From Faecalibacterium prausnitzii (GTDB lineage: Bacteria; Bacillota; Clostridia; Oscillospirales; Ruminococcaceae): a stretch of DNA of 64,000 bases. The notes below the pieces were generated by a model. The model ran no database searches. It worked only from the letters and a program-made list of their open reading frames with translations, and had not been told where the DNA came from. The position numbers were made by a program, and so were the translations under genes. The stretch spans positions 1-64,000 of the forward strand of contig NZ_PRLD01000009.1 of NCBI RefSeq assembly GCF_003287405.1. Reading direction: 5' to 3'. Each line of letters opens with the position of its first letter. Position 1 is the first letter of the stretch. Positions 1 to 31,516 of this stretch are shown one piece after another.

Positions 1-165
1 AATGTCAGCGAAGCCGAATTTCACAATCTTCAGCAAATTGTCTTGTGCGAAAATCAGAAAGTTTCCATTGAGAAAAAACTTGCAAGTACGATACTACTGG
101 TTCTGATGATATGTGCAACTGCTGCATTTGTATGGCTCACTTTTTGGTATAAGGTTTTGTTATGA
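1..165 (+). CDS. C-terminal end of an unrecognised membrane protein (partial)
   Basis: An open frame enters from the left edge and ends at TGA, giving 54 residues. The last about 25 residues form one clear hydrophobic helix (STILLVLMICATAAFVWL) followed by a short tail, so this is the end of a protein anchored near its C-terminus. The stop overlaps the next gene's start as ATGA, implying co-transcription and coupled translation. The stretch is noticeably AT-richer than the rest of the window, suggesting transferred DNA. Too little is present to name a family. Confidence 0.6.
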   Translation, partial: NVSEAEFHNLQQIVLCENQKVSIEKKLASTILLVLMICATAAFVWLTFWYKVLL

Positions 166-701
166 AAGAGATAATTATTGAACCACATATTGGAATTGGA
201 CAATTAAAATTAGGCATGACATCAGATGAATTAGAAAATGCTCTTCTACAAATGAAGAAACAGTGGTCGAATTCTTCTGATGAAGCAATGCAAATGGAAT
301 GTTGTGCGGAAACCGATGACCCTAATTTGATAACCGGACGATATATGGATAATGATTCGTTCTTTCTTGTGCAGTATCGGAACGGAAAAGCTGCTGAAAT
401 CGGCATCCAGCGTGATTTGTCTAAAGTGGCATCAATAAAATTGTTCGGGATGGATATGTTTAATACAGCCGCCGAGTGTATTATTGATAGCTTAATGAAA
501 AAGGACAACGTTATTTGCAACGAAAAGGACTTGCAACTGGGAACGGAATATTTTTTTCCCGAAATTGGAGTCCGACTCTGGAGAGAGCGAGCATTTCATC
601 CCAAACTGTTGAAAGACCCGCTATACATGGAAGAAATGCAGGCGGTATTAGAAGATGAATACCAGTATCAGTATTTTCAGATGGTTACCATAATAGGTTG
701 A
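162..701 (+). CDS. Hypothetical protein, 179 aa, cytosolic
   Basis: I do not recognise this protein. It is acidic, has no signal peptide or membrane helix, and begins with a GIGQLKLGMTSDEL segment of a type seen in many small stand-alone Firmicutes proteins, some of them immunity proteins of polymorphic toxins; that link is only inference here. It is translationally coupled (ATGA) to the upstream membrane protein, so the two probably work together. Codon use is AT-rich compared with the chromosome further right, consistent with an accessory island. A terminator follows 20 bases after the stop. Confidence 0.7.
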   Translation: MKEIIIEPHIGIGQLKLGMTSDELENALLQMKKQWSNSSDEAMQMECCAETDDPNLITGRYMDNDSFFLVQYRNGKAAEIGIQRDLSKVASIKLFGMDMFNTAAECIIDSLMKKDNVICNEKDLQLGTEYFFPEIGVRLWRERAFHPKLLKDPLYMEEMQAVLEDEYQYQYFQMVTIIG

Positions 702-719
702 ACTACTAACTAATCATGA

Positions 720-760
720 GCCCTCTATTTGCAACGACTGCAAGTAGAGGGCTGTTGTTT
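720..760 (+). terminator. Intrinsic terminator
   Basis: A 14-bp near-perfect stem (GCCCTCTA...TAGAGGGC, extended by TTGCA/TGCAA) with a short loop, followed by TGTTGTTTTG. It closes the two-gene unit to its left. Confidence 0.75.
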
Positions 761-784
761 TGCCTTGGATATTTTAATTAAAGG

Positions 785-1033
785 TCAATCTTCCAGTCTG
801 CCATGGTCGCAGCCAAGTGAAAGGTAGTGTTCAATCTCACCACTCAGCACAAGCTGGGCGTACTCCAATGGCTTATTGTAGAGCAGCCAATCCAGTTCTG
901 CCCGCTGTGCCGGGGTGTTGCCGTACTCGTCCTCAATGGCGATGCAGTCAAGGGAAAGGACAGTGCCATCCTCAAACCGGGCTTCCACCCGGTTGGTGTC
1001 CATATTGTAGCGGCAGGAAAGTAGTTTCATCAT
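785..1033 (-). CDS. Small DUF6061-type protein (divergent paralogue)
   Basis: An 82-residue protein of the type I know as DUF6061, a small cytosolic family of unknown function common in Faecalibacterium. It shares the layout CRYNMDTNRVE..FEDG..SLDC..E..AELDWLLYNKPLEYAQLVLSGE with two other copies in this window (starting at 8146 and 31269), but is much more diverged from them than they are from each other. ATG is preceded by AGGAGG eight bases upstream. Like the second copy, it sits right beside a tRNA-Lys fragment, so it may be cargo of the integrated elements. Function unknown; the family name is from memory. Confidence 0.7.
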   Translation of the reverse strand: MMKLLSCRYNMDTNRVEARFEDGTVLSLDCIAIEDEYGNTPAQRAELDWLLYNKPLEYAQLVLSGEIEHYLSLGCDHGRLED

Positions 1034-1128
1034 AGTAGTGTCCTCCTAGACTTGATTTTTGGTGTGCGGCCACTCAAACCAATGCCGTCAAGTCGATGGG
1101 GGATAGGTCGATTTTGTTTGTCAGAGAG

Positions 1129-1200
1129 TAAGTGCACGGTTTCTGCACGGATTTTGCACGGTTTCAAAACGTGCAGAAGGTGCTTTTCGCTGCAAAATTC
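1129..1200. repeat. Clustered TGCAC repeats left of att copy 1
   Basis: Direct repeats of the form TTTcTGCACGG/TTTTGCACGG occur three times in about 35 bases, followed by further TGCAG/TGCAC units. Similar TGCAC clusters lie inside the element at 1405-1440 and 7775-7800. Such repeats beside att cores are typical of integrase arm-type sites; the assignment is inference. Confidence 0.4.
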
Positions 1201-1300
1201 GACAAAGGGTGCAGAAATTACCGGGTGAAAAATCACGTTGCTTTGATTGAAAATAACGATGACTCGAAACTTCCATAAATTGAGACGAACCGGCGGCTTG

Positions 1301-1345
1301 CTCTCTTAATCAGTGGGCCCAGGGTTCGAGTCCCTGGAGGTGCAC
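1301..1345 (+). tRNA. 3' half of tRNA-Lys(CTT), probable att site (left copy)
   Basis: The segment starts at the anticodon loop (CTCTTAA, anticodon CTT) and runs through the T arm (AGGGTTCGAGTCCCT) to the acceptor end (AGGTGCAC). No 5' half with D arm precedes it, so it is a fragment and not a functional tRNA. An identical 45-bp copy lies at 7931-7975. Duplication of a tRNA 3' end on both sides of an integrase-bearing segment is the usual signature of attL/attR. Here the copy ends in TGCACTA, so even CCA is altered. Confidence 0.8.
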
Positions 1346-1353
1346 TAGATATT

Positions 1354-1390
1354 GAACGTCAAATCGTAAGATTTGACGTTCTTTCTTTAT
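1354..1390 (+). terminator. Terminator after tRNA-Lys fragment
   Basis: Perfect 12-bp stem (GAACGTCAAATC / GATTTGACGTTC) with GTAA tetraloop, followed by TTTCTTTATG. Its place just after the tRNA 3' end suggests it was the tRNA terminator or a copy of one. Confidence 0.7.
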
Positions 1391-1399
1391 GTAAGAAAG

Positions 1400-1441
1400 C
1401 GGCTGCACACTTTCTGCACACCGTTTGCACATTTGCCCAAA
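1400..1441. repeat. TGCACA repeats between att copy and integrase
   Basis: CTGCACACTTT, CTGCACACCG and TTTGCACATTT follow each other closely. They match the repeat style near 7775-7800 at the other end of the element and are candidates for recombinase arm binding. Confidence 0.4.
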
Positions 1442-1503
1442 TCAGGGGCTTTTCTGTGCATGGCTTGCACAGCCTGCTTTCCTTTGCATAAAAAGAAGAG
1501 AGG

Positions 1504-2487
1504 TTAAGCGAACAAGGCTCTCGTCAATTCTCTGCGTTCGTCTGCGTCCATCAGCCGGATGGCTTCAAGGATCTCCTTACCGGAGATTTTTGTTGCCGCC
1601 GGCTTTTCGTTTTGCCGGGGCTGGGATGCTGCCGGGGTCAGGTCTTGGGAGTAGAAGTTTGCTTCGATCTTCTCGGTCAGCTCCAACCGGGGCTTGTCCT
1701 GCGTGTGGGCGTAGGTGTCCATCAGGACAGATGCCGTTGCATGACCTGTGTTGCCCTGCACCGACTTGAAGTCACCGTCCGACTGCAAGAGCTGGTAGGT
1801 GGCACTGGAGTGCCGCAGGCCGTGGAACACGATCTGCTCAAACTCCGGGTGCTCGGCTCTCCACAGGCGGTACCACTTTGTCAGCAGCTCCGGCGCGATG
1901 GGCAGACCATCCGGGAGCCGGAACAGTTGCCCGCAATTGCTGTATTTCTCCGGGGCGTTCTGCTCGTCCTGCTTGAGCTTTTCAAGCCATGCCAGCAGTT
2001 CTTCCTTTAAGGGCTTTGTCATATACAGGACACGGTTGGATTTCTTGGTCTTGGGCTTTTTCAGGATAAGGGAGGACTTGCTGCCCTCACGCCTGTCCGG
2101 GAAGGTGTAGTAGACCTGTTTGGGGTCGAGCTTTTTCAGAGCGTCCTTGTTGGCTCTCTGCATGGTCTTGCTGACCGAGATGGTGCCACGCCCATCGGCG
2201 GCATCAAAGTCCAGATCACTCGGCTGTAAGCCGAGGATTTCGCCCTCACGGAGCGAAAGGATCATGCTCATGTGCACCGCCAGATGCAGGGCAGGATTCT
2301 CGATGGTCTGCAAGGCTGCCAGCATGGTTTTCTCGTCCCAGATGGTGCGCTCCTCGATATTGACCTTGGGGGCATCACGGGGCAGGGGAATCTTGTGGAT
2401 GAGGTCCCACTCCACAGCATAGGAAAATGCGGTCTTGAGCAGCGTGTAGACTTCGTGGATAAATGATTTTTCTAATCTCCGTTTCAA
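1504..2487 (-). CDS. Tyrosine recombinase (integrase), N-terminally truncated
   Basis: The C-terminal catalytic domain of a phage-type integrase that cuts and rejoins att sites. Visible catalytic residues are Arg in LREGEILGL, Lys in the KTKKSNRVLYM hairpin, the HGLRH box, GHA, and the Tyr nucleophile in MDTYAHT. At 327 residues from a TTG codon it lacks the N-terminal arm-binding domain and most of the core-binding domain; relatives are usually about 380-410 residues. The frame stays open about 25 codons upstream with non-homologous sequence, then meets a stop, so the 5' part appears deleted. It sits next to the left att copy, as expected for the element's own integrase, but is probably inactive or impaired. 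Confidence 0.75.
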   Translation of the reverse strand: MKRRLEKSFIHEVYTLLKTAFSYAVEWDLIHKIPLPRDAPKVNIEERTIWDEKTMLAALQTIENPALHLAVHMSMILSLREGEILGLQPSDLDFDAADGRGTISVSKTMQRANKDALKKLDPKQVYYTFPDRREGSKSSLILKKPKTKKSNRVLYMTKPLKEELLAWLEKLKQDEQNAPEKYSNCGQLFRLPDGLPIAPELLTKWYRLWRAEHPEFEQIVFHGLRHSSATYQLLQSDGDFKSVQGNTGHATASVLMDTYAHTQDKPRLELTEKIEANFYSQDLTPAASQPRQNEKPAATKISGKEILEAIRLMDADERRELTRALFA

Positions 2488-2875
2488 CAGCTTGCCGGGA
2501 GAGTGCGCAGCAGCGGAGCTGCTGGATCTGCCGCCATTTTGCGTCAGATAATACCCATCATATCACTGGGGCAAAGGGCTGCGCTCTCTGCACTCCTGCT
2601 CCGGGCAAACTGTCAACCTGACACTTTGCCAATACCCCCTATAAGGGAGAACTTGGGCGTTTCGCTGCGTATGTGCGTACGCAGCAGGTGGCTTTCTATG
2701 TACGCACATACGCAGCGAAAGACCGGAAACGCACCATACGTTTCGCGAACGCGAACTTTTGAGAACGCGTTGTTTTCGGCAGCTTGCAAGAAAAAGCGAT
2801 GGAAACTTTGGCAAAAAGAGAGAGGGCCGGACGGTGCCAGCCCTCTTGACAGGAGCAGATACGCAGATTTCTGCT
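2488..2875. other. Gene-free stretch with large inverted repeat and a copied segment
   Basis: No credible gene. It contains a 21-bp perfect inverted repeat (arms 2660-2680 and 2700-2720, TTTCGCTGCG... facing ...CGCAGCGAAA) with a 19-base loop. It also carries a 47-bp segment at 2778-2824 that recurs at 20376-20422 with about 85% identity by eye. Both copies lie just downstream of minus-strand genes. The truncated integrase start is at the left edge, so this may be the scar of a deletion. Confidence 0.6.
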
Positions 2876-3610
2876 TTATGCCCGCACATCCTTCCGGCGT
2901 AAAAGCAGCCATGCCAGAAGGAACATCGTCCCCAGCCAGAAGATGCAGCTGAAGGCAAACAGCCCGTAGCTGCCCGCCAGAGCATCCGCACTTCTGTTGG
3001 AGTTCATTCCGAGTTGCATCAGGGAATAGGGCCACAACAGCCCATGACCCTTGGAGCTGATAAAGATGCCGGTAATGCCGCCCAGCAGCCCCAGAAAAAT
3101 GGGCACGGCAAAGCTGCGGATGACCATGGCCAGCACCAGCTGTGCGGCAATGACAGCCAGCGCACCCAGCAGTCCCCGCAGTAAAAACAGCGGTAAGGTG
3201 ACCGGCGGCAGCCCGGGCAGATGGGCAAATACCTTGCCGCAGAACACGAACAGCGCAAATACAAAGCCGTGGGTCAGCAGCGCAAGCTTTGTCACCACCG
3301 CAAACTTTGCGGCAAACAGGTCCAGCGGCGGTACGGGGCTTGCCATGATCAGGTTCCAGTTGTGCCCCAGATGTTCCAGCCGCCACAAGTAGGCAGCATA
3401 GGTGGCTACCATGGCAGGGAAGAAGAGCATGGAATAAAACAGGGTGTGCTGGGTCCACAGGCTATACCAGCCGTCGGTGAGGATCTCAAGATTTTGCAGA
3501 TAATTGAAAGTACCGTAGGTGGCCGAAAGAATGGGCAGCACAAAGAACATTGCCCAGATGGGGGATGCGTGGAGTTTGCGGTTCTCCGCAAGAATACAGC
3601 GTTTCAGCAT
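2876..3610 (-). CDS. ABC-2 type permease, lantibiotic-immunity-like
   Basis: A 244-residue six-helix membrane protein starting MLKRCILAENRKL, with the WYSLWTQHTLFYSMLFFPAM and YAAYLWRLEH segments that I associate with the MutE/EpiE/MutG (ABC2_membrane_4) permeases of lantibiotic self-protection or bacitracin-type exporters. The start chosen has GAGGAGGT upstream inside the end of the preceding gene, leaving a 4-base gap; an upstream in-frame start lacks a ribosome site. Third gene of a minus-strand operon with the ATPase and a second permease. It probably helps expel a membrane-active peptide; the substrate is inference. Confidence 0.8.
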   Translation of the reverse strand: MLKRCILAENRKLHASPIWAMFFVLPILSATYGTFNYLQNLEILTDGWYSLWTQHTLFYSMLFFPAMVATYAAYLWRLEHLGHNWNLIMASPVPPLDLFAAKFAVVTKLALLTHGFVFALFVFCGKVFAHLPGLPPVTLPLFLLRGLLGALAVIAAQLVLAMVIRSFAVPIFLGLLGGITGIFISSKGHGLLWPYSLMQLGMNSNRSADALAGSYGLFAFSCIFWLGTMFLLAWLLLRRKDVRA

Positions 3611-3614
3611 GGTT

Positions 3615-4364
3615 TTATACCTCCTCGTCCTGTACCTTGCGCCACGCAAGGGCAAACAGCACAGCGCCCAGCGCAAGGGTGAAGGCCAGCAGCACCCAGT
3701 TAAAGGGGCGGGTGCCGTAGGTGACGGTGTGGGTGGCCTTGTCCCAGTTCGCCACTTCGTAGGCGCTCAGAGGGATGTAGTACCCAAAAGGCACAAAGTA
3801 ACTGGCAAGCGGTGGCATAAAAGCCGAAAACAGCCCCACCAGCGCCCCTACGATGCCCACGCAGAGCGCCGGCAGGGGATTGCCCACCCACAGCATCAGC
3901 AGAAATTCTCCAAAGAAGAGCATTGTGTCCACCGCCAGCGTGCAGATGAATAGGTAGACCAGCTGCCCAGTGGGAAAGGCTTCGGTATAACCATGGACAC
4001 GCCCCAGCACCGGAACGCAGGCCAGCTCCAGCACCGTGACCAACAGCACCTCCAGCACCCCAAAGACAGCTTTGCCTGCAAACAGGCTGCGGCGGCTCTG
4101 CAGGGTGTAGAGCAGCTTTGCGGTGTTGCCTTTGATCTCCATATCCCACAGCCGGGAGGCCAGCACTGCCATCATCACTGGCATCAGAATAGCTTCAATG
4201 ACGGGCAGGCTGTAAAGCAGGGCGCTGTAACCGTTGGCAAGCTCCTCCGGGTCTGCCGGAGCAAGGCCGCCCACCCACAGCACGACAATGCCGGGGATGA
4301 GCAGGCAGAGAGCAAGGTCATGCCTACGGTGGGCTTTTTGCAGTTCTGCACGGAAAGCTGCCAT
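3615..4364 (-). CDS. ABC-2 type permease, lantibiotic-immunity-like
   Basis: A 249-residue polytopic protein with about six hydrophobic helices and the SRLWDMEIKGNTAKLLYTLQ segment characteristic of this exporter family. It begins one base after the ATPase stop and ends four bases before the other permease, so the three genes form a tight operon. The two permeases are distinct in sequence, as in NisEG/MutEG heterodimers. Role: membrane channel for export of an antimicrobial peptide or for immunity to it (inference from family and neighbours). Confidence 0.8.
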   Translation of the reverse strand: MAAFRAELQKAHRRHDLALCLLIPGIVVLWVGGLAPADPEELANGYSALLYSLPVIEAILMPVMMAVLASRLWDMEIKGNTAKLLYTLQSRRSLFAGKAVFGVLEVLLVTVLELACVPVLGRVHGYTEAFPTGQLVYLFICTLAVDTMLFFGEFLLMLWVGNPLPALCVGIVGALVGLFSAFMPPLASYFVPFGYYIPLSAYEVANWDKATHTVTYGTRPFNWVLLAFTLALGAVLFALAWRKVQDEEV

Positions 4365-4365
4365 C

Positions 4366-5292
4366 TTACGCCACCTCCCCGCTGGTCTGGGTCAGGCTGA
4401 GGAAGATGTCCTCAAGGCTCTTTGTCTGCGCAGTCAGTCCAACTACGCCCACGCCGCTTTCGGCAAGAGTACAGACCAGCGCCGCCAACGCTTCGTCCGG
4501 CAGCGGGGGCAGCTGCAGGGTGTCCGGCTGGTCTGCCGGTGCAGCGGCTTTTACTCCCTGCTGCTGCAGGACGGCTGCGGCTTTGGGGGCGTCCAGCACC
4601 CGCAGCAGAATGCCGCCCCGGCTGTGCTTTTGCAGCTGCTGCAAGGAGCCCTCGAACAGCAGTTTGCCGTGGTTCAGGATGCCCACCTGATCCACCATCT
4701 GCTCGATCTCTCCCAGCAGGTGGCTGGAAATCAGCACGGTGGCTCCGGTGGTCTGCGGCATGGAAGCAATCAGACTGCGCATCTCCTGAATACCTGCCGG
4801 GTCCAGACCGTTGGTGGGTTCATCTAAAATCAGCAGTTTGGGGCTGCCCAGCAGCGCCATGGCAATGCCCAGCCGCTGCTTCATGCCAAGGGAATACTGC
4901 CCCACCTTCCGGTCAGCGTCTTTGGTCAGGTGCACGATCTCCAGCACCCGGCTGATGTCCTTCCGATCCACGTCTTTCAAGTCAGCCACGATGGAAAGGT
5001 TTTCTCGGGCGGTCAGGTGCAGATAACCGGAGGGGGATTCGATCAGGCTGCCGGTCTGCCGCAGCAGGGCAATGCGGTTTGCTTCGTTCAGGGTGTGCCC
5101 CAGCAGTTCCACACTGCCACCGGTGGGGTGTACAAGCCCCAGCAGCATCTTCATGGTGGTGGATTTGCCCGCACCGTTGGGGCCTAAAAAGCCGTAAACA
5201 CAGCCTTCCGGGACAGTCAGGTTCAAATGATCCACCACCGGACGGCCATGGTAGCTTTTGCAAAGGGCATGGGTCTCGATCACAGGTTTCAT
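4366..5292 (-). CDS. ABC transporter ATPase, BcrA/MutF-like
   Basis: A 308-residue ATPase energising the two permeases that follow. Walker A GPNGAGKST is at residues 37-45, the signature YSLGMKQR near 130, Walker B LLILDEPTNGLDP near 155, and the H-loop SSHLL after it. The C-terminal 80 residues form the accessory domain usual for BcrA/NisF-type drug and lantibiotic exporters. The start ATG has AAGGAGA upstream; a longer frame of 59 extra codons reaches back into the divergent promoter region and is unlikely. Divergently arranged with the response regulator gene, the standard layout of peptide-sensing detoxification modules. Confidence 0.9.
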   Translation of the reverse strand: MKPVIETHALCKSYHGRPVVDHLNLTVPEGCVYGFLGPNGAGKSTTMKMLLGLVHPTGGSVELLGHTLNEANRIALLRQTGSLIESPSGYLHLTARENLSIVADLKDVDRKDISRVLEIVHLTKDADRKVGQYSLGMKQRLGIAMALLGSPKLLILDEPTNGLDPAGIQEMRSLIASMPQTTGATVLISSHLLGEIEQMVDQVGILNHGKLLFEGSLQQLQKHSRGGILLRVLDAPKAAAVLQQQGVKAAAPADQPDTLQLPPLPDEALAALVCTLAESGVGVVGLTAQTKSLEDIFLSLTQTSGEVA

Positions 5293-5371
5293 AAAGGGTC
5301 TCCTTTCGCATTCATGGATTTCGGAACGATGCCAGAATACACCCGCTGCCTTAAACTGACCGGAAGCGCAG

Positions 5372-5394
5372 CTTAATTTACCCTTAAATTTGCA
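5372..5394 (-). promoter_or_regulatory. Possible response-regulator direct repeat before the ABC operon
   Basis: Read on the minus strand the segment contains AATTTAAG and AAATTAAG spaced one helical turn apart (11 bp). Tandem half-sites about 11 bp apart are typical OmpR-family binding sites. It lies between the divergent ABC operon and its regulator gene. Confidence 0.35.
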
Positions 5395-5423
5395 GGCGTT
5401 TTCCGCTGCGGCGCAAAAAAGTG

Positions 5424-5432
5424 TGGTATAGT
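5424..5432 (+). promoter_or_regulatory. Extended -10 promoter of the two-component operon
   Basis: TGGTATAGT fits the TGn-TATAAT extended -10 element; no good -35 is seen at the right distance. GAAAGGAGAA precedes the regulator ATG about 27 bases on. Confidence 0.5.
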
Positions 5433-5458
5433 AAAGGCAGGAAAGGAGAACTGCCCTT

Positions 5459-6178
5459 ATGGATACCATTTATGATGCAAAGCTCCTGCTTGTGGACGAC
5501 AACGCCGAGCTGCTGGCACTGCTATGTGAGCAGCTGCGGGGCGCAGGATATGGCCATATCAGAACTGCCCAAAGCTGCGCCGCTGCCCGCGCCTGCTTTG
5601 CGGCAGAACAGCCGGAGTTGATGATCCTGGATATCAACCTGCCGGATGGGGATGGATTTTCGCTGTTCCGGGCGCTGCGGGCAAAAGCGGATGTCCCGGC
5701 ATTGTTCCTCTCTGCACGGGACGCGGATGCCGACCGTCTGTTTGGGCTGGGTCTTGGCGCAGATGACTACCTGACCAAGCCCTTTCTGATGCAGGAGCTG
5801 CTGCTGCGGGTGCAGCATATTTTGCAGCGGGCGTACCGGGCAGAGCTGTCCCGTACAAAACCGGCACCTTTGCAGCTGGGGGAGCGGTGCGTAGACCTGA
5901 ATGATGCCATTGTTACCCTGCCAGAGGGCAAAACGCTGGCACTGACCGCCACCGAACTGGCGCTGCTGCGGAAATTGGCAGAGAACCGGGGACACATCGT
6001 TACCTACGATGCCCTTTGTGCGGCGGTCTGGGGCGCAGATTACTATGGCTACGAGAACAGTCTGGGTGTACATATCCGGCATCTGCGGGAGAAGCTGGAA
6101 GCCGAACCCGGTGCGCCGCAGTTTCTGCGGACGGTGCGGGGCATTGGCTATAAGCTGACAAAGGGGGAAGAAGCATGA
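5459..6178 (+). CDS. OmpR-family response regulator
   Basis: A 239-residue transcription regulator. The receiver domain (about 8-120) has the acidic pair Asp13/14, phosphoacceptor Asp58 (LMILDINLP) and Lys107 (YLTKPF). A winged-helix DNA-binding domain follows (about 140-235, ending TVRGIGYKLT). Its stop overlaps the sensor kinase start as ATGA. Divergent to the lantibiotic-immunity-like ABC operon, which it most likely activates when the kinase senses a cell-envelope peptide; this is inferred from layout. Confidence 0.9.
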   Translation: MDTIYDAKLLLVDDNAELLALLCEQLRGAGYGHIRTAQSCAAARACFAAEQPELMILDINLPDGDGFSLFRALRAKADVPALFLSARDADADRLFGLGLGADDYLTKPFLMQELLLRVQHILQRAYRAELSRTKPAPLQLGERCVDLNDAIVTLPEGKTLALTATELALLRKLAENRGHIVTYDALCAAVWGADYYGYENSLGVHIRHLREKLEAEPGAPQFLRTVRGIGYKLTKGEEA

Positions 6179-7539
6179 AAACCTTTGTGCGCCTGATCCG
6201 GCGGTATGTGCTGGCGGCGGTGGGCATTGTTTTGCTGCTGTTGTTTTCCGGTGTTGCGGTGCTGGGCTGGCTGGGTTGGCAGGAGGGCTGCCGCCTGCCG
6301 CAGCGGGAATACTCCTCCAGCGAGATCGCGGATTCCATGGTGGAGACCGCCGAAGGGCTTGCCTTTGGGGCAGAACGCACCCCGCAGGAATGGATGAACG
6401 GCTACGAGTGGGCGATGGTGCTGGACGATGTGGGAAACATCCGCTGGAGCTACGGCCTGCCGCAGGAACTGAACCATGCCTACACTCCCGGCGATATCGC
6501 CAAATTTGCCCGCTGGTATCTGGCGGATTACCCGGTGTTCTGTTGGACAGAACCTTACGGACTGTTCGTCATCGGGTTGCCAAAGGGGAGCCTGTGGAAG
6601 TACAGCATTTACAGCTCACCGGACTTTGCCCTGAGCATGGTGCGGGTGCTCCCGGCAGCAGCGTTGGGAATGCTGCTGCTGGGTCTGGTTCTCTGCTTCT
6701 GGCTGAGCTGGCGGGGGGCAAAGCGGCTGGAGACCGTGGCAAACGGTCTGGAAGCACTGGCGCAGGGGCAGACCGTCCGGCTGCCTACCGACGGTTTTGC
6801 CGGGGAACTGGCAGAAAAGCTGAACCAGACCGGGGCGCAGCTGCAAGCCAAAAATGAGATGCTTTCCCGGCGGGACAACGCCCGCACCCAGTGGATCGCA
6901 GGAGTCAGCCATGACGTGCGCACCCCGCTGGCGCTGATCTTAGGCTGGGCAGAGCAGTTGGAACAGGATGCACTTTTGCCGGACAGCTCCCGGCAGAAAG
7001 CGACCGGCATCCGTACCCAGTGCGAAAAGCTGCGCACCCTCATTGATGACCTGAACCTGACCAGTAAGCTGGAATACGGTGCCCAACCCCTGCGCCGGAA
7101 AGACCTCCGGGCAGGGCCGCTGTTCCGGCAGCTGGTGGCGCAGTTTTGCGAAAGCCCGCTGGCAGAGCGCTGCGAGATCACACTGGAACAGGAAGAGCCA
7201 GCAGAGCAGACAGTGCTTTCGGTGGATGAGGCGCTGCTGGCACGGCTGCTGGAAAATCTGCTGAACAACAGCGTCCGGCATAACCCAAAGCCGGTGAACA
7301 TTACCGTGCACACCCGGCAGGTAGGGGAGCGCTTCTGCCTGACCGTGGCAGATGACGGTATCGGCTATCCAGCTGCCGTTCTGGTGGCACTGAACGCTGC
7401 GGAGCCTGCCGAAAATGCGCCCCATATCCTTGGCCTGTATGTAGTGCAGCAGATCGCCGCCGCCCATGGCGGCACGGCAGTGTTTGGGCAGAATACCCCC
7501 CGCGGAGCAAAAGCAACGGTCTGGCTGCCGGTAAAATAA
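6175..7539 (+). CDS. Sensor histidine kinase of the ABC-linked two-component system
   Basis: A 454-residue membrane kinase: helix 1 at about 11-33, an extracytoplasmic loop of about 120 residues, helix 2 at about 157-177, then a HAMP-like linker, a dimerisation/phosphoacceptor helix with His246 (GVSHDVRTPL) and a C-terminal ATPase domain (LLENLLNNSVRHN, VADDGIGYP, GLYVV). The sizeable loop separates it from the loopless BceS type and makes direct ligand sensing plausible. Partner is the response regulator immediately upstream. No terminator directly follows. Confidence 0.88.
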   Translation: MKTFVRLIRRYVLAAVGIVLLLLFSGVAVLGWLGWQEGCRLPQREYSSSEIADSMVETAEGLAFGAERTPQEWMNGYEWAMVLDDVGNIRWSYGLPQELNHAYTPGDIAKFARWYLADYPVFCWTEPYGLFVIGLPKGSLWKYSIYSSPDFALSMVRVLPAAALGMLLLGLVLCFWLSWRGAKRLETVANGLEALAQGQTVRLPTDGFAGELAEKLNQTGAQLQAKNEMLSRRDNARTQWIAGVSHDVRTPLALILGWAEQLEQDALLPDSSRQKATGIRTQCEKLRTLIDDLNLTSKLEYGAQPLRRKDLRAGPLFRQLVAQFCESPLAERCEITLEQEEPAEQTVLSVDEALLARLLENLLNNSVRHNPKPVNITVHTRQVGERFCLTVADDGIGYPAAVLVALNAAEPAENAPHILGLYVVQQIAAAHGGTAVFGQNTPRGAKATVWLPVK

Positions 7540-7774
7540 AAAATGTGAACCTTTTAGGTGTTTCCACCCAGAAAAGTCCACATAGAAAGAGCTGCTTCGG
7601 ATTTATAAGAGATCGCAGTTGTCCAAATCCCTGCCATGAATCGTAGTTGTTGATGTACATTTGATGCTTGGCCTAAACAGATAATATCGTAGCTGCCGTA
7701 TCGGGTTCGAACCCGGCCATTTTCCCGGCTTTGCATAAAAATCCGATGCCTGCTTTAAGGGGCTGATTTTGGCT

Positions 7775-7860
7775 CTGCACATTTTTGCACACCGGAACGG
7801 CTGGATAACGGATGCAAGAGGGGATGGCGGATGCAAAGAATGCAGCGGATGCAAAACACA
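7775..7860. repeat. Repeat cluster just inside the right att copy
   Basis: CTGCACATTTTTGCACACCGG is followed by four GCGGATGCAA/ACGGATGCAA-like units within 55 bases. Position and TGCAC content mirror the cluster at 1400-1441. Candidate integrase arm or accessory-protein sites. Confidence 0.4.
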
Positions 7861-7930
7861 AATTTACGGTGAAACGATAAAAGTAACGAATCTGCGTAAT
7901 TCTGGAAATTGACGATTGTTGCACGTTGGT

Positions 7931-7975
7931 CTCTCTTAATCAGTGGGCCCAGGGTTCGAGTCCCTGGAGGTGCAC
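7931..7975 (+). tRNA. 3' half of tRNA-Lys(CTT), probable att site (right copy)
   Basis: Identical over 45 bases to the copy at 1301-1345 and here continuing into a proper CCA end (TGCACCA). Again no 5' half or D arm is present upstream. With the left copy it brackets a 6.6-kb segment carrying an integrase, an ABC exporter and a two-component system. Confidence 0.8.
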
Positions 7976-7986
7976 CACAACAACAA

Positions 7987-8029
7987 AATCCGAACTTTTT
8001 TCCGATAGGAGAAGGGTTCGGATTTTTTG
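7987..8029 (+). terminator. Intrinsic terminator after the tRNA fragment
   Basis: AATCCGAAC pairs with GTTCGGATT across a 20-base loop, followed by TTTTTG. A similar half (GGTTCGGATTTTTTG) recurs near 10847. Confidence 0.65.
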
Positions 8030-8040
8030 TATTCTTCGGA

Positions 8041-8145
8041 AAACAGGACGAATCCCTTGCTTCCATCGAAAAACGTCCTAGACCTTATCATAAGAAAGCA
8101 CGACAGACCACTGTGAGAGTGCCGTAAGGCGGAAAGGACACAAAC
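8041..8145 (+). promoter_or_regulatory. Conserved leader of DUF6061-type gene (copy 1)
   Basis: This 105-base stretch matches 31163-31268 with only about four differences, ending in the same GCCGTAAGGC mini-hairpin and a GGAAAGGAC ribosome site. It contains CTTATCATAAGAAAGC but no obvious sigma-70 promoter. Conservation as high as in the coding region suggests either recent duplication or a functional leader. Confidence 0.55.
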
Positions 8146-8397
8146 ATGAAGTACGATGAAAGAGCCTGCAAGTTCAACATGGACACCGGCTGTGTGGAAC
8201 TGCTGCTCCGGGATGGGAGAATGATCTCCATTAACTGCACTGGGGTCGAGGATGCACCGGATGTGACCATGTCGCAGAAATCAGAGTTGGATTACCTTAT
8301 CTACAATGACCCGCTGGGCTATGCGGATTTGATTCTGAACGGTGACCCGGAGAAATACTTGAAAACCGTGACCGGGAGCCATGGGTTAGAAGATTAA
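8146..8397 (+). CDS. Small DUF6061-type protein
   Basis: An 83-residue cytosolic protein of unknown function, nearly the same as the copy at 31269 and distantly like the one ending at 785. Shared features are KFNMDTGCVEL, a DG..I-[ND]-CTGVED turn, and SELDYLIYNDPLGYADLILNGDPE. No signal peptide, membrane helix or catalytic motif is visible. The start follows GGAAAGGACACAAAC. It lies immediately outside the right tRNA fragment, with a two-way terminator behind it. The family name is from memory; the role is unknown. Confidence 0.75.
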   Translation: MKYDERACKFNMDTGCVELLLRDGRMISINCTGVEDAPDVTMSQKSELDYLIYNDPLGYADLILNGDPEKYLKTVTGSHGLED

Positions 8398-8398
8398 G

Positions 8399-8440
8399 AG
8401 AAATGCCGTTCCAAAAGCAACTGGAACGGCATTTCTTATC
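8399..8440. terminator. Two-way terminator
   Basis: Perfect 14-bp stem AGAAATGCCGTTCC / GGAACGGCATTTCT with a 10-base loop, overlapping the end of the convergent merR-type gene and able to serve both strands. Confidence 0.7.
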
Positions 8441-8903
8441 TTTCGATATTCGGCATCTTCTGTCCCCGAAGCTCCTGCCGGATGGCACGGAACTGATCAG
8501 GTACATCCGCATCGGTCATCGCACCGGGAACATCCACTGTCCCAGCGGCTTTGGCGGCTTCATAGAACCAGCATTTATACTCCACGGTCTCCAGCGTATG
8601 CTGTAACTGCTGGATCTGCTGGGTGAGCACCTCCCGCTGATGCCGGAACATTTCCAGCCGGGTGTCAATGGTGTCGTCTCCCTGCATGGAAAGCTCAATA
8701 TACTGCCGGATATCCTTGATGGACATTCCGGCTTTTTTCATGCAGCGGATGACCTGCAGCCACTCGAAGTCGTTTTCCCGGAACATCCGAATGCCGCCGG
8801 AGGAACGCTCCACAAAGGGAAGTAACCCTTCTTTGTCATAGTAGCGCAGGGTGGAGGCAGGTACGCCCAGCTTTTGTGCCATTTCACCTACGGTATAGAT
8901 CAT
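8436..8903 (-). CDS. MerR-family regulator (AdhR-like)
   Basis: A 155-residue regulator: N-terminal MerR winged helix (MIYTVGEMAQKLGVPASTLRYYDKEGLLP), second wing (GGIRMF), then a long coiled-coil dimerisation helix (EVLTQQIQQLQHTLETVEYKCWFYEAA). It lacks a C-terminal ligand domain, like the aldehyde-responsive AdhR/NmlR group. ATG at 8903 is chosen because GGAGG lies eight bases upstream; a 7-codon longer frame lacks a site. It is divergent from the flavodoxin remnant and CMD-cupin gene, whose promoter carries a MerR-type dyad. It probably activates that operon. Confidence 0.85.
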   Translation of the reverse strand: MIYTVGEMAQKLGVPASTLRYYDKEGLLPFVERSSGGIRMFRENDFEWLQVIRCMKKAGMSIKDIRQYIELSMQGDDTIDTRLEMFRHQREVLTQQIQQLQHTLETVEYKCWFYEAAKAAGTVDVPGAMTDADVPDQFRAIRQELRGQKMPNIER

Positions 8904-8931
8904 CTGAAACCTCCGGTTTTTCAAAAAGCCC

Positions 8932-8962
8932 TTGACTTAAAGTACGCTTTAAGTTGTATGAT
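8932..8962 (+). promoter_or_regulatory. MerR-type promoter with 19-bp spacer and dyad operator
   Basis: TTGACT and TATGAT are 19 bp apart, the overlong spacing typical of MerR-controlled promoters. Between them lies a perfect 8-bp dyad ACTTAAAG-4-CTTTAAGT (8935-8954), closely like the CTTAAAG..CTTTAAG operator of Bacillus AdhR as I know it. Confidence 0.8.
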
Positions 8963-9020
8963 AAAATCAATCTTTATCAACATCATAATGCGGATGCACT
9001 CCGCTGTCAAGGAGGTTCCT

Positions 9021-9137
9021 ATGAGCAAGAAGGTATTGATTTTGTCTGGCAGTCCACGGAAGGGCGGTAACTCTGATATTCTATGCGATGAATTTCTGCG
9101 TGGAGCACAGGCTTACGAGATGGGGAGGAATGTATAA
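9021..9137 (+). pseudogene. Internally deleted flavodoxin-fold NAD(P)H:FMN reductase
   Basis: The 38-codon frame starts with an intact flavodoxin N-terminus including the FMN phosphate loop (LILSGSPRKGGNSD), continues to DEFLRGAQ, and then jumps to AYEMGRNV, which looks like the usual extreme C-terminus of the same family. About 140 residues in the middle are missing, yet start, ribosome site (AAGGAGGT) and stop remain. This is an in-frame deletion relic or a tiny peptide without reductase function. Its stop overlaps the next start as TAATG, keeping the operon's coupling intact. Confidence 0.7.
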
Positions 9138-9889
9138 TGGCAGTGAAACAGACCGCAGGGCGGGATGCTCTGGGCGAATTTGCGCCAAAGTTTGCAGAAC
9201 TTAACGATGAGGTACTATTCGGGCAGGTGTGGAGCCGAGAGGATAAACTCTCCCTCCGGGACCGCAGCCTTGTGACGGTGGTGGCACTGATGGCGCAGGG
9301 ACTGACGGACTCCTCGTTTCGGTATCACCTGACGGCAGCGAAAAACAACGGTATTACCCGGACTGAGATTGCAGAGATCCTGACCCATGCGGCGTTTTAT
9401 GTAGGTTGGCCCAAGGCGTGGGCGGCTTTCCGCATGGCCAAGGAAGTCTGGGCAGAGGACGCAGCAGAGGATGCCAAGGCAAAGCACCAGAGTGAAATGG
9501 TGTTCCCCATCGGTGCATCCAACGACGGTTTTGCACAATATTTCAGCGGAAAAAGCTATCTGGCACCCTTGTCCACCGCACAGGTTGGCATTTACAACGT
9601 CACCTTTGAGCCGGGCTGCCGGAACAACTGGCACATCCACCATGCCGCAAAGGGTGGCGGGCAGATCCTTGTCTGCGTGGCAGGCCGGGGCTACTATCAG
9701 GAATGGGGCAAAGCGCCGCTGGAGCTGCATCCGGGCGATGTGGTAAACATTCCCCCGGAGGTCAAGCACTGGCACGGTGCTGCACCCGATTGCTGGTTCT
9801 CTCATCTGGCAGTGGAAGTACCCGGTGAGGGCACCTCCAACGAGTGGTGCGAGCCGATGCCGGAAGAAACCTATAAGGAGTTGCAGTGA
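9137..9889 (+). CDS. Carboxymuconolactone decarboxylase-cupin fusion
   Basis: A 250-residue two-domain protein. Residues about 25-105 are a carboxymuconolactone decarboxylase (AhpD-like) helical domain (LSLRDRSLVTVVALMAQG, THAAFYVGWPKAW) without the CxxC pair of peroxidatic AhpD. Residues about 130-245 are a cupin with metal-ligand pattern HIHHAAKGGGQ and HPGDVVNIPPEVKHWHG. Fusions of this kind occur in MerR-regulated aldehyde/quinone stress operons; B. subtilis AdhR controls a CMD gene, yraC. Here it follows the deleted flavodoxin and is expected to use the MerR promoter at 8932. Substrate unknown. Confidence 0.85.
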   Translation: MAVKQTAGRDALGEFAPKFAELNDEVLFGQVWSREDKLSLRDRSLVTVVALMAQGLTDSSFRYHLTAAKNNGITRTEIAEILTHAAFYVGWPKAWAAFRMAKEVWAEDAAEDAKAKHQSEMVFPIGASNDGFAQYFSGKSYLAPLSTAQVGIYNVTFEPGCRNNWHIHHAAKGGGQILVCVAGRGYYQEWGKAPLELHPGDVVNIPPEVKHWHGAAPDCWFSHLAVEVPGEGTSNEWCEPMPEETYKELQ

Positions 9890-9920
9890 TGCGGTTTGAT
9901 GTACACCCAACCATGATGAA

Positions 9921-10761: not shown

Positions 10762-10836
10762 ATGCTTGCCACCAAGCCGTTCTGCGGCTACTGTGGGGCG
10801 CTGATGTTTGGCGAAAGCGACGGAAGTTGCATCCGA
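10762..10836 (+). pseudogene. Fragment of a large serine recombinase (zinc-ribbon part)
   Basis: Some 25 codons read ATKPFCGYCGALMFGESDGSC, matching the CGYCGxxM zinc-ribbon of transposon-type large serine recombinases (normally K-L-F-C-G-x-C-G). Nothing else of the protein remains on either side. A footprint of a lost mobile element. Confidence 0.5.
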
Positions 10837-10907
10837 GGAAAATGGTTCGGATTTTTTGTTTTCTTTGGAAACGAGAACAATGGATCTTCCCATAAAATCG
10901 TATTGAA

Positions 10908-31105: not shown

Positions 31106-31162
31106 TTGGGTAGCTTGAGCGAACGACAACCACCAGTTCCGCCGGTGATTTTGACTCTTCGG

Positions 31163-31268
31163 AAAACAGAACGAATCCCTTGCTTCCATCCAAAAACGTC
31201 CTAGACCTTATCATAAGAAAGCACGACAGACCACTGTGAGAGTGCCGTAAGGCGGAAGGAACACAAAC
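31163..31268 (+). promoter_or_regulatory. Conserved leader of DUF6061-type gene (copy 2)
   Basis: Matches 8041-8145 almost base for base, including CGTCCTAGACCTTATCATAAG and GTGAGAGTGCCGTAAGGCGG. Confidence 0.55.
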
Positions 31269-31505
31269 ATGAAGTACGATGCAAGAGCCTGCAAGTTCAA
31301 CATGGACACCGGGTGCGTGGAGCTGCAGTTCCGGGATGGGAGGAAAATCTCCATTGACTGCACTGGGGTCGAGGATGCGCTGGATGTGACCATGGCGCAG
31401 AGGTCAGAGTTAGATTACCTTATTTACAATGACCCACTGGGCTATGCGGATTTGATTCTGAATGGTGACCCGGAGGAGTATTTGGAGAATGGAGCCATGG
31501 GTTAG
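31269..31505 (+). CDS. Small DUF6061-type protein
   Basis: A 78-residue near-copy of the protein at 8146, differing at about 18 positions and ending early (EYLENGAMG instead of the SHGLED tail). Same KFNMDTGCVEL and SELDYLIYNDPLGYADLILNGDPE segments. Function unknown. It sits alone between two terminators, with its own conserved leader, which suggests the leader plus gene moved as one cassette. Confidence 0.75.
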   Translation: MKYDARACKFNMDTGCVELQFRDGRKISIDCTGVEDALDVTMAQRSELDYLIYNDPLGYADLILNGDPEEYLENGAMG

Positions 31506-31516
31506 AAATCTGAATG

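Follow-up and report, generated by a model that had tools for sequence, protein, structure and literature searches.

An integrating element can decay to a cis-mobilizable element (CIME) and another can then integrate at the same site, and a tandem of an integrative and mobilizable element (IME) with a decayed integrative and conjugative element (ICE) at tRNA-Lys is named in Streptococcus agalactiae, according to the parts of PMC5704250 consulted. Considerable numbers of ICEs and IMEs are described in Faecalibacterium prausnitzii in PMC6295017, the consulted sections of which contain no mention of the tRNA-Lys site; a literature search found nothing, in the collection searched, on Faecalibacterium tRNA-Lys integrative or cis-mobilizable elements. 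A second point of reference is the Cpr operon, which comprises one ATPase, two ABC-2 permeases, and a two-component system (TCS) with an extracellular-loop kinase, and no biosynthesis genes (PMC5786555). Here, we describe a locus of an F. prausnitzii genome (G000; 3.03 Mb in 70 contigs) that brings these subjects together. The window analyzed is a 64-kb stretch starting at the end of contig C70, and all coordinates refer to it. We conclude, with a probability of roughly 0.88, that positions 1301 to 7975 represent a decayed tRNA-Lys integrating element, of a type that we designate B, lying in a tandem array and still bearing a cassette of an ATP-binding cassette (ABC) transporter and a TCS. The locus appears to fit the course of element decay and accretion already described in PMC5704250, as far as the consulted parts of that source extend.

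Two identical copies of a tRNA-Lys(CTT) 3' half bracket the element, as an earlier note on this DNA had reported. Both are exact, with starts 6630 bp apart, and the shared sequence, which begins at the anticodon loop, is exactly 45 bp long with a leftward extension of 0 bp. ARAGORN detected no whole tRNA in the window, and neither repeat copy is a whole tRNA; contigs C22 and C28 were each found to have a whole tRNA-Lys(CTT) gene of G000 at an edge. An Rfam scan of the window at gathering thresholds gave 0 matches. The integrase, ATPase, two permeases, and divergent TCS previously listed between the repeats were all recovered by profile matches. Left end, integrase, and right end between the repeats are all of type B, which indicates a single element, not a chance pairing, and, to judge from its sequence, this element is a site-specific insertion at a tRNA 3' end.

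The integrase has decayed. Its open frame encodes 352 aa, compared with 466 aa in the copies of the nearest relatives. The integrase itself starts at about residue 140 of the full protein, leaving approximately 139 N-terminal residues absent. A complete 11-kb counterpart occurs in genome G015 (contig C52), where a repeat is followed by an integrase, a helix-turn-helix (HTH) gene of family HTH_17, a Mob_Pre relaxase (Mob_Pre is taken by us to correspond to MobV), a D5/DUF5906 replication protein (REP), the cassette, and a second repeat. The G015 integrase has 465 aa with both the SAM-like and the catalytic domains (PF14659 and PF00589), the repeat copies carry 1 and 2 mismatches, and the chromosomal flank is the same as that of the window. 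G015 is collinear on both sides, matching window positions 1068-2461 and 2758-9890, and the gap between these stretches is 4.75 kb in G015 versus about 0.3 kb in the window. The 4.75-kb stretch contains the HTH_17, Mob_Pre, and D5/DUF5906 genes together with the integrase N terminus and its SAM-like domain; between the window repeats, there was no HTH, MOB/relaxase, or REP match. Shreds of the backbone nevertheless persist. They match three other B-type elements (L093, L095, and L098) in the same order, and the HTH and REP genes flanking or separating their counterparts in relatives are missing from the window element. The window element thus fits a decayed, CIME-like remnant that has retained its attachment sites and lost its genes for integration and transfer.

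Compared with the CIME in accretion with an IME described in the consulted parts of PMC5704250, the locus is alike in keeping its attachment sites, in having lost integration and transfer genes, and in forming a tandem with a more complete element at one tRNA site. It differs in occurring in another genus and in retaining a catalytic integrase fragment, and it is likened to the Streptococcus case by description, not by sequence. The same portions of that source describe IMEs with a tyrosine integrase and a MobV-type relaxase, which the G015 counterpart and many elements of a second type, A, at tRNA-Lys resemble: these carry an integrase, an HTH gene, a Mob_Pre relaxase, and often a replication gene. 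The window element, in contrast, has neither an intact integrase nor a relaxase match and so lacks both attributes of an IME.

A second, different element ends at the left repeat, a point that the earlier note missed along with the truncation of the integrase. Contig C28, which holds a whole tRNA-Lys, an A integrase, and HTH, relaxase, and REP genes, and window positions 1-1345 match two parts of one contiguous element of genome G025 at about 93%. Given that contig C22, the second contig with a whole tRNA-Lys, starts with a type-B left end, it is a poorer fit than C28 as the upstream part. The order is therefore likely to be tRNA-Lys, A element, B remnant, chromosome. On C22 itself (L100, 19483), the type-B left end comes after the whole tRNA-Lys, and no integrase was detected next to it; this is perhaps another decayed B element.

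On the right side, the earlier note had predicted an empty site with one tRNA-Lys followed directly by the sequence beyond 7975. Such an arrangement exists in genomes G022 and G020, where this sequence abuts a whole tRNA-Lys with 73/75 bases identical in each; the homology ends after about 465 bp at 90% and does not continue into the next window genes, part of the stretch is a dispersed repeat in the genus, and G020 holds a further repeat 33 kb downstream. We regard these as the same kind of site as that of the window, though not necessarily the same locus, on the basis of the direct tRNA contact; an empty copy of the very locus was not found. The contents of the locus do vary, in line with the earlier expectation: in G005 and G011, this right flank is preceded by elements in which the search detected no ABC/TCS cassette.

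Table 1. Features annotated or predicted at the left end of the window
Feature	Position	Strand	Basis
Right end of neighboring type-A element, with a DUF6061 gene inside at 785-1033 (-)	1..1300	+	93% collinear with right end of contiguous type-A element in G025:C1 (L156); type-A end sequence before repeat
Left attachment site, tRNA-Lys(CTT) 3' half, doubling as junction of two tandem elements	1301..1345	+	Exact repeat; flank classes
Type-B left end: hairpin after tRNA 3' end (1354-1381) and repeated TGCAC motifs	1346..1500		Left end shared with type-B elements in other genomes
Tyrosine integrase truncated at the N terminus: catalytic part retained, SAM-like core-binding domain gone	1504..2487	-	Phage_integrase PF00589 only
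Backbone shreds (2477-2615, 2634-2734, 2744-2861)	2477..2861		blastn matches, same order, to L093, L095, L098
ABC-2 permease	2876..3676	-	ABC2_membrane_4 PF12730, E 5.7e-20; TIGR03732 MutE/EpiE 33.9 bits, cut-off 145.2
ABC-2 permease	3615..4364	-	ABC2_membrane_4 PF12730, E 7.6e-11; no NCBIfam match
ABC ATPase, 308 aa	4366..5292	-	ABC_tran PF00005; TIGR03740 260.7 bits, cut-off 309.75; Walker A, signature, and Walker B motifs
Predicted response-regulator operator, four 11-bp units: CTTAA in boxes 1, 3, and 4, degenerate in box 2	5349..5392		Pattern in divergent promoter region
OmpR-family response regulator	5459..6178	+	PF00072 and PF00486
Sensor histidine kinase (HisKA/HATPase)	6175..7539	+	PF00512 and PF02518; H, N, and G boxes
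Type-B right end	7619..7930		84-91% over matching stretches in L093, L094, L095, L097, L098, L103; end class
Right attachment site, tRNA-Lys(CTT) 3' half	7931..7975	+	Exact repeat
Chromosomal side, terminator-like sequence	7976..8060	+	Directly follows whole tRNA-Lys at two empty-type sites (G022, G020)

Elements of this kind are widespread in the comparison sample of 31 genomes of the genus, which includes G000. The tRNA-Lys 3' sequence (≤2 mismatches, whole genes counted) occurs in 22 of the 31 genomes, with at least 3 copies in 15 of them. Each of the 8 single-contig genomes has two whole tRNA-Lys genes, and 18 extra 3' halves are distributed between these genomes. tRNA-Glu immediately precedes tRNA-Lys in 8 of the 18 loci with a whole tRNA-Lys, several of these loci being cut by contig ends. 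Mapping of the fetched tRNA-Lys repeat stretches, to which the family description applies, revealed the two element types, each with its own left and right end sequences. Integrases of type A are 50-52% and those of type B 86-97% identical to the G015:C52 copy. The six loci listed for the type-B right end in Table 1 had no detected ABC/TCS cassette. In this mapping, response regulator, histidine kinase, and ABC matches of <45% identity and overlapping matches were dropped, which hides the second permease.

Integrase type agrees with end types in 18 of 19 intervals (7 B and 11 A, the window's interval included) in a hand tally restricted to intervals where a left end, an integrase, and the next right end were all seen. 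The tally leaves out L097 (last element), L098, L152/L153, L154, L158, L161, L165, L167, L168, and L169, as well as C22, C28, and the second elements of L094 and L095, where only one end was seen, or no integrase, or no recognizable left repeat. The exception is a 45-kb interval of G006 (L085/L086, G006:C8:710778-755786, 15 kb of it unfetched) whose left end is of type A and whose right end is of type B; it is probably a composite island, and the cassette lies at the right end here too. The family comparison supports the view, already implied by the reading of the repeats as an attL/attR signature, that the window repeats are attachment sites used by a genus-wide family of elements integrating at tRNA-Lys. 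Related genomes display empty-type, single, and tandem states, and the locus illustrates the stacking of integrating elements behind tRNA-Lys in a major gut commensal genus. In the phage collection, we found only distant integrase relatives (10 records, all <60% identity), and in the plasmid collection, 7 records had relaxase relatives.

The cassette has a wider distribution than the islands. The kinase gene occurs at 95-98% identity in 6 other genomes of the 31, so that the possibility raised in the earlier note, that relatives carry the cassette without tRNA fragments, is half borne out (4 of these 6). Including G000, three of the seven genomes with kinase identity of at least 95% have it in tRNA-Lys islands (G000, G015, and G006), in G015 and G006 against a tRNA-Lys repeat as in the window, and the other four hold it elsewhere (G026, G022, G005, and G020). 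The hypothesis of an ABC/TCS block confined to tRNA-Lys islands was consequently rejected. In G026, G022, and G005, the cassette lies in one common chromosomal neighborhood (96% over 14 to 18 kb) and in G020 in a different place. No tRNA-Lys repeat (≤4 mismatches) was present in the 18 to 19 kb fetched around the cassette in these four genomes; the tRNA detected near the cassette in G026, G022, and G005 is tRNA-Pro, at a distance of about 7 kb, and the G020 stretch yielded no tRNA. An empty chromosomal site for the G022/G005/G026 position could not be defined, its flanks being on different contigs in G000 and far apart in G009.

Nucleotide identities point to a history of transfer between species. 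Between G000 and G015, G006, and G020, the cassette is 96.2-96.7% identical and the rpoB region 85.9-86.8%, the G020 comparison spanning about 3.9 of 4.66 kb with one piece dropped for small overlap. The two values are similar when G000 is compared with its close relatives G022, G005, and G026 (cassette, 96.0-96.5%; rpoB region, 95.2-95.3%). G025 and G015, conversely, share 93.6% in the rpoB region but 83.2% in the cassette. The yardstick is one core region, rpoB, and two chromosomal flank searches made from G022 pointed in the same direction. Distant versions with the same layout were found in Gemmiger (kinase, 55-57%) and on a Lactococcus plasmid (kinase, 30.5%). On this comparative evidence, the cassette is portable on its own, and a probable peptide-defense cassette has moved across species boundaries. 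A separate observation concerns the G020 cassette, which has about 1.7 kb inserted near the junction of the two permease genes (L090, 12321-14057).

An alternative hypothesis, compatible with the structural account and only somewhat short of even odds in our judgment, is that the cassette travels mainly by other routes (homologous recombination, plasmids, or other elements) and that its presence in the islands of three genomes reflects hitchhiking. This would explain why four of the seven genomes hold it off tRNA-Lys, three of them in a common neighborhood; tblastn of those four stretches found no integrase, relaxase, HTH, or REP relative, and the Lactococcus version sits between two IS6-family transposase genes. 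On the other hand, G000, G015, and G006 share the cassette, the B right end, and the chromosomal flank, and the G015 cassette lies inside an element with all backbone genes, which makes it likely that some transfer occurred with the element.

We think that a Cpr-like role of the cassette in peptide efflux is probable, though well short of secure. The window cassette shares with CprABC-CprRK one nucleotide-binding domain protein, two ABC-2 permeases, a TCS with a loop kinase, and a lack of biosynthesis genes (PMC5786555). It differs in that its TCS is adjacent to and divergent from the transporter, whereas the Cpr TCS genes are distantly located (PMC5786555). The likeness is one of gene set and layout, and the ATPase and one permease of the window score below the cut-offs of the curated lantibiotic ABC models, which form no part of the published definition of the Cpr type. 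The kinase has about 114 residues between predicted membrane segments 3-36 and 151-182 (hydropathy). The permeases have 249 and 266 aa; simple hydropathy merges or misses their segments, six helices per permease being expected in the Cpr type. The listed ATPase reading frame is 4366-5469 (-), but the ATG at 5292 is preceded by a ribosome-binding-like AAGGAGA and is more likely to be the start than 5469.

Two other transporter types fit less well. LanFEG producer immunity differs in that no lantibiotic biosynthesis genes accompany the cassette: LanC (PF05147) was found in 0 of 31 genomes, with the control positive in 1 of 14 named genomes, which makes self-immunity of a lantibiotic producer unlikely. 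The BceAB type differs in having one large permease instead of two and a kinase without an extracytoplasmic sensor, in contrast to the loop of the window kinase.

It could also be that the pump acts on a substrate other than an antimicrobial peptide, for example, a lipid or another drug. The NCBIfam matches include DrrA and GldA, the lantibiotic models lie below cut-off, and the best relatives of the ATPase in the Protein Data Bank (PDB) are ABCA lipid transporters; PDB sequence searches returned general ATPase and kinase-core relatives only. We nonetheless consider this unlikely, by a margin that leaves it a real contender, given that the top NCBIfam model for the ATPase is the lantibiotic-protection model TIGR03740, that a permease matches MutE/EpiE, and that an ATPase, two permeases, and a TCS constitute a Cpr-type set. 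The peptide sensing and export proposed in the earlier note thus retain a family resemblance, without the curated thresholds being reached.

The divergent promoter region contains a predicted binding site for the response regulator. Its CTTAA boxes lie 22 and 11 bp apart with a degenerate box in between, and an 11-bp repeat spacing is as expected for an OmpR-family regulator. The pattern occurs once in the 64-kb window, compared with 0.00 expected. It is exact in 13 of the 14 cassettes with kinase identity of at least 55%, namely, 9 from Faecalibacterium, including the window's, and 4 of 5 from Gemmiger, the fifth being imperfect. Of 203 loci scanned, 26 matched, and all 26 are cassette loci; the pattern was absent, even at 2 mismatches, from 11 loci with 37-40% identical kinases. 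At the same place, the Lactococcus plasmid version has four ACCTT boxes and a Monoglobus plasmid version three CTTA boxes, both with an 11-bp step. A consensus scan of 5250-5520 gave 0 promoters and 0 terminators. The conservation of this predicted operator opens it to direct test.

We postulate the following history. An ancestor with an integrase, HTH, replication gene, and possibly a relaxase would have inserted into the 3' part of tRNA-Lys, bearing the ABC transporter/TCS cassette at its right end. Comparison with relatives shows that internal deletions then removed the integrase N terminus, HTH, replication gene, and any relaxase, leaving the cargo and both attachment sites. A type-A element with integrase, HTH, relaxase, and replication genes most likely lies upstream by the whole tRNA-Lys, sharing the repeat at 1301. 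The remnant is probably immobile alone and could move by means of enzymes supplied in trans or together with its neighbor. As for the cassette, the gene families, layout, and conserved operator suggest that an envelope-active peptide is sensed by the extracytoplasmic loop of the kinase, that the regulator recognizes and binds the 11-bp repeats lying between these divergent operons, and that the ATPase and two permeases clear the peptide from the membrane.

Several results weigh against parts of this account. Of the 6 other B-type elements spanned by fetched sequence, only L084 and L098 gave relaxase matches, with none in L093, L094, L095, and L103, so that the ancestor was perhaps not an IME in the strict sense, and a seventh B-type element, G015:C4, gave no relaxase match in its fetched part. 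The join of C28 to the window is deduced from the contiguous relative in G025, in which 3.95 kb separates the two matched parts and which lacks the REP stretch of C28. The occurrence of the cassette away from tRNA-Lys in 4 of 7 genomes means that its mobility need not stem from the element. The best NCBIfam models for the ATPase and for one permease (TIGR03740 and MutE/EpiE) are both below cut-off, and the closest solved ATPases by sequence are lipid transporters. One of the 11 operator-free loci, in G010, has a divergent ATPase at 51% and thus represents a cassette without the operator even at 2 mismatches.

A more adventurous possibility is that the remnant retains mobility as a satellite, with integrase and relaxase provided in trans by the type-A neighbor, which has the tRNA-Lys core in common with it, and that such arrays serve as shared shelves for keeping cassettes and exchanging them between Faecalibacterium species; we consider this improbable. 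The compact, currently functional element dedicated to a peptide-defense module that the earlier note envisaged can be read from the exact repeats, the integrase beside the left one, and the scarcity of anything but ABC/TCS genes between them. That reading is very hard to sustain, given that the integrase lacks its core-binding, SAM-like domain and that the HTH, relaxase, and replication genes present in the relative are gone while backbone shreds persist in order. That the truncation and the shared repeat are assembly artifacts is hardly credible: C22 and C28 end at tRNA-Lys and the window starts at a contig end, as if tRNA repeats break the assembly, but the deletion is internal to the contig and at a distance from the repeats, the relatives' backbone shreds run in order across the junction, and the element ends and right flank match other genomes.

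Short repeats occur within the elements. TGCAC/GTGCA is found 5 times in the 155-bp left end, 16 times in 6118 bp of interior, and 3 times in the 312-bp right end, and the repeats in the type-B left end may be integrase arm sites. A perfect 21-bp inverted repeat (2660-2680/2700-2720, 19-nucleotide gap) was considered as an origin of transfer (oriT) and rejected: in the B elements L093, L095, and L098, related repeats adjoin REP on its 3' side, thus tracking REP, and two of these three elements have no relaxase match. No counterpart was found in the relaxase-bearing G015 element (L084). Two further copies occur in G009 stretches (L102 and L161). Of 12 type-A elements examined, 8 (L099, L101, L102, L150, L151, L155, L156, and L166) have a different, short inverted repeat located 150 to 193 bp upstream of their relaxase gene, a candidate oriT.

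In G009, a 6.7-kb type-A element is present at both tRNA-Lys loci (L101 and L102), embedded in 7217 bp that match at 99.1% between the loci. Since identity is also 98.9% upstream of the tRNAs, the pair may have arisen by duplication or conversion as well as by two insertions. The G+C content of the window cassette is 59.6%, compared with 55.2% for the window. Positions 1-148 have matches of 94-99% at five places in different contexts, including one within G000 (C50). A 54-bp terminator-like motif and a DUF6061 gene module (window 7990-8397, 31149-31507, and 10836-10878) are dispersed repeats, with 7 to 18 matches each in 15 of the 31 genomes (fragments included; up to 14 candidates scored per genome), and several copies lie directly after tRNA-Lys repeats.

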